A stretch of DNA of 64,000 nucleotides, taken from contig JAHEDK010000001.1 in NCBI GenBank assembly GCA_024641245.1, forward strand, positions 62,001-126,000, read 5' to 3'. This document shows positions 4,492 through 61,835 of the stretch, one piece after another (positions within the stretch are counted from its first letter, which is position 1; each line of letters opens with the position of its first letter). The stretch comes from Actinomycetes bacterium (GTDB lineage Bacteria > Actinomycetota > Acidimicrobiia > Spongiisociales > JAHEDJ01). The position numbers and the translations under genes are program-made. Under the pieces are notes generated by a model, which made no database searches, was not told the DNA's origin, and saw only the letters and a program-made list of their open reading frames with translations.

Positions 4492-4542
4492 TTTTCTGCG
4501 CAATGCTGTGGACCACCACACACCATTGCATTGCGGAGAAAA
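4492..4542. repeat. Palindromic repeat family, copy A
   Basis: Arms TTTTCTGCGCAATGC and GCATTGCGGAGAAAA pair with one mismatch across a 21-nt spacer. The element fills the gap between the convergent ends of the small membrane-protein gene and fabF. Copy B at 36436 has identical 14-nt core arms and the same spacer length. No U-tract follows on either strand, so it is not a standard terminator. Confidence 0.85.
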
Positions 4543-36435: not shown

Positions 36436-36484
36436 TTTCTGCGCAATGCAATGGACCGTCACACGTCAATGCATTGCGGAGAAA
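36436..36484. repeat. Palindromic repeat family, copy B
   Basis: Arms TTTCTGCGCAATGC and GCATTGCGGAGAAA flank a 21-nt spacer. The arms are identical to those of copy A 32 kb away, and the spacers share the motif TGGACC and CACAC. It lies between the start of the NYN gene and the stop of the DksA-like gene. There is no U-tract. Confidence 0.85.
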
Positions 36485-51075: not shown

Positions 51076-51084
51076 CAAAACCTG

Positions 51085-51132
51085 TTTTCGCGCGGGGATT
51101 CCACCTCATAGGACGCGATCCCCGCGCGAAAA
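51085..51132. terminator. Large inverted repeat after the osmoprotectant-binding gene
   Basis: TTTTCGCGCGGGGAT and ATCCCCGCGCGAAAA form a perfect 15-bp inverted repeat with an 18-nt loop. It lies 6 bp beyond the stop of the substrate-binding protein gene. The stem ends in A/T runs on both strands, so it can act as a terminator in either direction. Confidence 0.65.
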
Positions 51133-51137
51133 CGGAA

Positions 51138-52070
51138 TTATGCGTCGATAAAGCCGTTCTCGACCAGGAAGTCGCGAGCGATGTCTTCGGCGTCCAATTG
51201 CTCAATGTCGAACTTCCGATTCATCTCGGTCAAGTCCGCCGTCGAAATCGCTGCGCTGATACTGTCGACGAAGTCGCGGAAGTCCGACCCGTAGGCGTCG
51301 ACGATCTCATCGCTGGTCACCGGCACCACGTTGTCTGCGGCGAGCAGATTCTTGTCATCCTCCAGGAGCACCCAGCCCCGATCTGCGATGATTCCAGAAG
51401 TCGAGAACAGCAGAGCGATGTCGATCTCATCAGCTTCCAGCGCCTGCACCGTAATCGCCCCGGCATCGAGCGGCGTGAAGCTGCCACTCAGGTCGAGGCC
51501 GTACACACTCTGGAGACCCGGAATGCAAAACGCGTTGGTCTCACAGTCGGGGGGCCCACCCAACTTGAGGTCCGCACCCTTCGAAGCCAGATCACTGAGC
51601 GACGTGATACCAAGCGACTCACTCGTTGCCTGCGTGACTACGAAAGCGTTCGTATCGACGGCAGGCGAAGGATCGAAGGCACTCAGGCCCTTCTCGGTCA
51701 GATATCCGCGCAGGGACTCAGTAGTCCCCTCCGCATCACCGGTCGCCTCACCGGCGAACCCATTCAAGAACTCGAGCATCGACGCTGCGTACTCGGGAGT
51801 GAAGTTGATATCACCACTCTCGAACGAAGCCAGGACTATGTCACGGAAGCCGCCGAGGGGCTGGACGGCAACGTCGTACCCGTCTGCTTCCAGCGCCTGA
51901 GCATAGAGCGAGGCAAGAATCGCCGACTCTCCGAAGTCCTGTGCACCGACCTTGATTTGTGGCCCTTCTTTGGGCTCACCGGCGCCATCACCCGATCCGC
52001 ATGCACTGATAATCAGAATCAGTGTCAGCGTGATCGCCCCGATGGCACCCTTGCGGCGGAATCCCCGCAT
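51138..52070 (-). CDS. Osmoprotectant ABC transporter, substrate-binding lipoprotein
   Basis: This is a 310-aa lipoprotein with signal and lipobox (IISACG, Cys about residue 24). The OpuBC/OsmF-type fold follows: KVGAQDFGESAILASLYAQALEADGYDV, FTPEYAASMLEFLNG, and ALEADEIDIALLFSTSGII. It should bind glycine betaine or a related quaternary amine. The aromatic cage residues cannot be placed with certainty. Last of four transporter genes, it follows the second permease after a 77-bp gap with a small hairpin. GGGAGAG precedes the ATG. Confidence 0.88.
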   Translation of the reverse strand: MRGFRRKGAIGAITLTLILIISACGSGDGAGEPKEGPQIKVGAQDFGESAILASLYAQALEADGYDVAVQPLGGFRDIVLASFESGDINFTPEYAASMLEFLNGFAGEATGDAEGTTESLRGYLTEKGLSAFDPSPAVDTNAFVVTQATSESLGITSLSDLASKGADLKLGGPPDCETNAFCIPGLQSVYGLDLSGSFTPLDAGAITVQALEADEIDIALLFSTSGIIADRGWVLLEDDKNLLAADNVVPVTSDEIVDAYGSDFRDFVDSISAAISTADLTEMNRKFDIEQLDAEDIARDFLVENGFIDA

Positions 52071-61653: not shown

Positions 61654-61713
61654 GAGTTGATTTGCCAGCATACCGGCGGCCGGTTCAACAGGTCGCCCGC
61701 TCCATAACCAGTC

Positions 61714-61761
61714 TTCTCGGCAATGCAACGCACGGTTTCGCGTACACAGCATTGCTGAGAA
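61714..61761. repeat. Palindromic repeat family, copy C
   Basis: TTCTCGGCAATGC and GCATTGCTGAGAA pair (one G-U) across a 22-nt spacer. It lies 13 bp before copy D in the same orientation and opposite to copies A and B. In that orientation it shares the internal motif TGnAC with the others. Confidence 0.85.
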
Positions 61762-61774
61762 TCCTTCCGAATTG

Positions 61775-61822
61775 TTCTCGGCAATGCAGTGGTCGGTATT
61801 TCGTGCATAGCATTGCCGAGAA
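61775..61822. repeat. Palindromic repeat family, copy D
   Basis: TTCTCGGCAATGC and GCATTGCCGAGAA are perfectly complementary across a 22-nt spacer. The element ends 13 bp before the nitroreductase ATG and so sits in that gene's leader. Copy C is its tandem partner. Confidence 0.88.
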
Positions 61823-61835
61823 ACAGGGGTACACA

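Follow-up and report, generated by a model that had tools for sequence, protein, structure and literature searches.

A genus-restricted, REP-like palindrome of Acidimicrobiia as a possible host-maintained boundary element at gene ends

The palindromes described here form a family that is restricted to a single genus of Acidimicrobiia. Our reading, which we place slightly short of an even chance and which draws on sequence comparison, is that this genus-specific REP-like palindrome may be a boundary element maintained by the host at gene ends, with its arms read by a putative factor. At matching places in different species the arms are unchanged, a pattern suggesting that the cell may use the elements rather than merely carry them. 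The window, a stretch of 64,000 nucleotides (G000:C50:62001-126000), comes from the source genome G000, an assembly of 2.70 Mb in 71 contigs that is 87.6% complete; G001 to G004 are the other four genomes of the genus. All genomes are draft assemblies, and the copy counts given here are lower bounds.

Four palindromes lie in the window where the original prediction had placed them, starting at 4493 (A), 36436 (B), 61713 (C) and 61774 (D), and, as it had also said, all four are intergenic and the arms of A and B are identical:

4493..4541, no strand assigned: copy A, 49 bp with a 21-nt core
36436..36484, no strand assigned: copy B, 49 bp
61713..61762, no strand assigned: copy C, 50 bp with a 22-nt core, first unit of a head-to-tail doublet with D
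61763..61773, no strand assigned: linker of the C/D doublet, 11 nt, CCTTCCGAATT, conserved in length and not in sequence
61774..61823, no strand assigned: copy D, 50 bp

The exact arms, GCAATGC-N15..27-GCATTGC, have four matches in the window, where dinucleotide-preserving shuffles lead one to expect 0.01, and a covariance model that had all four copies in its training set scores them at 52-65 bits (64.7 for copy A); a search of Rfam gave no match in the window. Copy A fills the 56 bp that separate two convergent genes, lying 2 bp past one stop and 5 bp from the other, and copy B lies 1 bp past the stop of a DksA/TraR zinc-finger gene on the minus strand. A nitroreductase gene has its ATG (61836) 12 nt beyond the end of copy D. 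That C and D are a head-to-tail doublet joined by an 11-nt linker had escaped the original prediction, and the same arrangement recurs across the genus.

Each unit is 49 or 50 bp long, with arms TTTCT-NN-GCAATGC / GCATTGC-NN-AGAAA around a core of 21-22 nt, so that 14-bp terminal inverted repeats, a criterion for MITEs, are present. Within the arms the conserved part is TTCT-N2-GCAAT-N-C, and the core between them is directional, variable and fast-changing. The median margin in aligning oriented copies is 15.7 nats, compared with 5.4 after their halves are re-paired, and the copies therefore descend from one oriented ancestor. A TGnAC motif had been proposed just inside the left arm: it fits the four window copies only if each is oriented freely, and over 62 copies only the TG is general (half-positions 17-18, in 113 and 115 of 124 halves), the next bases being variable. 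The two halves of a G000 copy differ in their first two core bases: 29 of 62 copies have AA in one half and TG in the other, and none has AA in both. Hairpins of the family have a mean minimum free energy of about -21 to -26 kcal/mol, and pairing at their variable arm positions does not exceed that of shuffled ones. The real hairpins are less stable than half-swapped chimeras; we considered selection for asymmetry and set it aside, since common descent from a directional ancestor can explain the difference. Selection for base pairing as such was likewise rejected as a complete account, because the variable arm positions pair as shuffled and change without compensation. Lone arms are essentially absent from 212 kb, where the one found without mismatch is a truncated doublet partner; an uptake signal sequence (DUS/USS) was rejected on this scarcity of unpaired single arms.

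In G000 the exact arms occur 36 times and a reversed control pattern not once. A covariance-model search returned at least 124 strand matches, equivalent to at least 62 copies, and a pattern scan of the fetched stretches of this genome gave 62 copies at up to three mismatches. Nearly all of these copies (at least 62) are intergenic, which confirms the high intergenic copy number that the original prediction had proposed to look for. All four other genomes of the genus are rich in copies. Among 119 genomes drawn from the order, strong matches are confined to the genus, and two genomes of one other family carry 4-6 weak matches each; single matches in other genera of the order were dismissed, as they have no outer arms and look like chance. 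A 23-base pattern run against 84,980 species, the source genome excepted, matched only records of two metagenome-assembled genomes, which correspond to G003 and G004 of the genus. Collections of viral contigs, plasmids and phages yielded no match, and we rejected a phage or plasmid origin on that ground.

Other palindromes are present too. A second palindromic repeat in G000, CCGTTCTCGCGCGGGGAT...ATCCCCGCGCGAAAACGG, has two copies in 212 kb, at 51080-51143 of the window and at L122 from about 208. In another family of the order, the palindrome TTCTTGCGTGAG...CTCACGCAAGAA (G014: L158, L159, L162, L164; G007: L173; 8 copies in the 281 kb sampled) resembles this second repeat of the window. A 49-bp palindrome, GAACCCTGGGCTCGTAG...GAGCCCAGGGTTC, has five copies in the same 281-kb sample (G014: L157, L158, L162; G007: L175), some of them directly past stop codons, and TTCTCGTCAATGC...GCATTGACGAGA, at L162:12426-12471 and L173:2977-3022, likewise outside the family that holds the genus but within the order, may be a distant relative of the window family.

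Using hexamer-based gene predictions, we classified about 43 loci as lying between same-direction (25), convergent (13) or divergent (5) genes, the C/D locus being one of the last group. In 19 of the 21 same-direction gaps with room for other positions, no more than 16 bp lie between the element and the upstream stop codon, a count expected to be 5.7 and reaching at most 14 in 20,000 random placements; convergent copies mostly lie 0-16 bp from the flanking stops. A scan of 30 flanking proteins found no common pathway. The loci are thus not one regulon, and an operator role for a single regulon was rejected. Hairpins sited after stop codons recall ordinary intrinsic terminators, which might share sequence by chance. 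As the original prediction had stated, there is no U-tract: TTTT occurs within 12 nt in 0 of 122 outer flanks of G000 copies, and this by itself largely refutes the terminator reading. Intrinsic termination also has no need of a conserved arm sequence, the variable arm positions do not maintain pairing, and the C/D region of the window holds no terminator-like site. We regard this explanation as highly improbable.

The comparison between species is what leads us to favor a role for the element in the cell. Identity to G000 is about 90% for G002 and 70-80% for G001 and G003, and element placement is conserved even at 70-80% flank identity. Of the fetched G002 element loci, 16 match a G000 element locus at the same place; matched loci number 13 with G001 and G003 together. 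Sites A and C/D, which are among these 13, are occupied in all four species (G000-G003), and the C/D element keeps roughly the same place before the nitroreductase start in G001, G002 and G003. At site B, what G001 and G003 have in the same place is a decayed relic, and single sites can therefore be lost. In orthologous elements of G000 and G002, core arm bases show 0 substitutions in 480, whereas other arm positions changed in 25 of 192 (13%), the interior in 56 of 512 (11%) and the linkers in 35%; the elements compared were those detectable in both genomes (up to four mismatches), which favors conservation somewhat. Against G001 and G003, with three element pairs each, 0 of 120 core arm bases and 47-58% of the interior changed. 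Arm pairs that changed between G000 and G002 number 25, of which none is a compensated double and 17 switch between paired and mismatched. It is thus each arm's sequence that is conserved, and pairing is not kept where the arms vary; since the core arm bases never change, a hairpin read by a protein is still conceivable. Together, the frozen core arms at matched sites and the uncompensated changes elsewhere in the arms speak against recent mobility and in favor of sequence-specific recognition that selection maintains. A binding site for a shared protein, one of the options raised originally, is favored by the absence of substitutions at core arm positions between orthologs, the protein itself being putative.

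Copies are solitary or stand in head-to-tail pairs. Over four species we counted 48 doublets, with a linker of 11 nt in 45 and 10 nt in 3, which fixes the period at 60-61 bp; linker sequences are unrelated between loci. Five of the 16 loci matched between G000 and G002 are single in the former and double in the latter. There are no triplets among the doublet loci of the four species, and a site holds one or two copies, never three, though single and double states interchange between species. Singles have no decayed partner, except at L047. Mean core identity within doublets is 0.79-0.92 in direct and 0.39-0.50 in inverted comparison, with random pairs at 51-55%. Near neighbors, too, show unusual likeness: 8 pairs of copies separated by less than 2 kb reach 0.89, compared with 0.64, although one of the 8, a C11 pair at a distance of 153 bp, bridges an N gap and could be a product of assembly. 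The likeness both of paired cores and of near neighbors would be accounted for by local duplication or by gene conversion. The origin of a doublet has left a clear trace only at L033:1959-2080, where the 11 nt preceding the first copy (CTGATTCGCGT) recur exactly as the doublet linker; tandem duplication explains this exact flank duplication as well as a target-site duplication does. At L046:935-2110, two near-identical doublets 1 kb apart flank a gene for a DUF559 / MTES_1575 nuclease-like protein.

The fixed doublet period is also what might be expected of a chromosome-architecture site, at which a protein involved in nucleoid structure, segregation or supercoiling would bind the paired arms as duplex DNA and whose position after genes comes merely from avoiding promoters and coding regions. 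Such a site would accommodate arms that vary without compensation, the spread of copies over many contigs and the presence of some copies in divergent regions. However, random placement in the longer same-direction gaps fails to explain the closeness to stop codons, and there is no candidate protein; we consider this explanation quite unlikely.

The REP elements provide the closest comparison. REPs of the GTAG and CGTC superfamilies are 20-40 bp long, occur as singles and dimers, and form lineage-specific families (Di Nocera et al. 2013, PMC3733652). Their convergent copies lie no more than 20 bp from either gene end, their same-direction copies adjoin the upstream stop, and their dimers are often oppositely oriented, most spacers being 20-100 bp long (PMC3733652). 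The window family is similar in being made of many short intergenic palindromes, placed at 3' ends, single or dimeric and specific to a lineage. It differs in its length of 49-50 bp, in having no RAYT in the genus, in its head-to-tail pairs with an 11-nt linker, and in lacking the GTAG/CGTC tag (in 122 ends, GTAG 1, CTAC 4, CGTC 2 and GACG 5, against 3.2, 1.9, 9.5 and 8.6 expected). As tag, length, dimer orientation and transposase all fail to match, we describe the family as resembling REPs and do not file it as one. Two inverted conserved arms around a variable spacer, the capacity to form a hairpin, and single and double states with triplets rare are also features of REPINs (Bertels and Rainey 2011, PMC3116915), unlike which the doublets here are direct, have no RAYT and are stably inherited, with core arms undecayed at orthologous loci. 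In E. coli, the AA-GC mismatch bulge of the REP bound by TnpAREP (PMC8266576) finds a parallel in the stem mismatch of G000 and G002, often A/A and A/C at half-positions 15-16, which likewise gives the strands polarity; however, most copies in G001 and G003 have no such mismatch, and TnpAREP is lacking. Repeated intergenic hairpins also make up the stem-loop sequence families of bacterial genomes (PMC2267715), among which the window family would be placed by structure. REP-like placement is thus already known, and the untagged, transposase-free form with fixed spacing is new.

This likeness raises the possibility of a non-autonomous mobile palindrome of the REP/MITE kind, with no host function, for which gene ends are the least harmful places of insertion and whose transposase was lost, is missing from the assemblies or is of a type outside the search. 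The high intergenic copy number, the descent from one directional ancestor and the decay at site B would all suit it, and REP families are likewise found after stop codons (PMC3733652), those of the CGTC type also having no dedicated transposase. However, none of the five genomes of the genus (two of them notably incomplete, at 56% and 88%) contains PF01797 (Y1/RAYT), with control genomes positive, and no empty site was seen between G000 and the 90%-identical G002 at the loci compared, which left out two further unmatched G002 loci, L069 and L153; two unmatched G002 element regions have no counterpart in G000. Core arms that stay unchanged while the interior changes are, moreover, not what a neutral relic would show. 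The RAYT mobile element of the original prediction is accordingly rejected for want of a transposase, and of its REP-like repeat of about 49 bp the copy number and gene-end placement stand while Y1/RAYT-driven mobility does not. A mobile palindrome without host function seems to us unlikely overall.

We favor a boundary role, be it termination, roadblock or 3'-end protection, which we infer from placement and palindromy: even where gaps are long, the element keeps close to the stop codon, and a palindrome makes the site act from both sides. A putative sequence-specific factor would read each arm, either on double-stranded DNA or in a hairpin at the 3' end of the transcript. Bound at a gene end, it may mark or close the transcription unit, by ending or blocking transcription from either side or by protecting the 3' end of the mRNA. 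As the arms are palindromic, such a site would work in either orientation, which suits convergent genes, and paired copies may bind two complexes at the fixed spacing of 60-61 bp. Presumably the family spread by copying in the ancestor of the genus and became, or always was, maintained by the host; change at present would be mostly conversion between single and double states, with short-range homogenization of neighbors. The chief difficulty for a boundary role is the five divergent loci, C/D included, which a pure 3'-end role does not explain. The ordinary hairpin terminator sequence just ahead of the C/D element in G001 counts against it too, as does the decay of site B. We also entertain, as somewhat doubtful, a wider proposal in which a putative genus-specific factor marks gene ends independently of orientation at about 40 or more loci per genome, with pairs needing the 60-61 bp spacing and analogous palindromes serving in related lineages (e.g. 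G014).

REP-like repeats are usually viewed as parasites of RAYT transposases or as relics. Here, a family with neither tag nor transposase has arms frozen at individual orthologous sites, while everything between and around them changes. With such frozen arms, whether a REP-like repeat serves its host can be tested directly, and the fixed spacing of doublets, together with the uncompensated variation of the arms, provides a concrete footprint for finding the factor that would read them.
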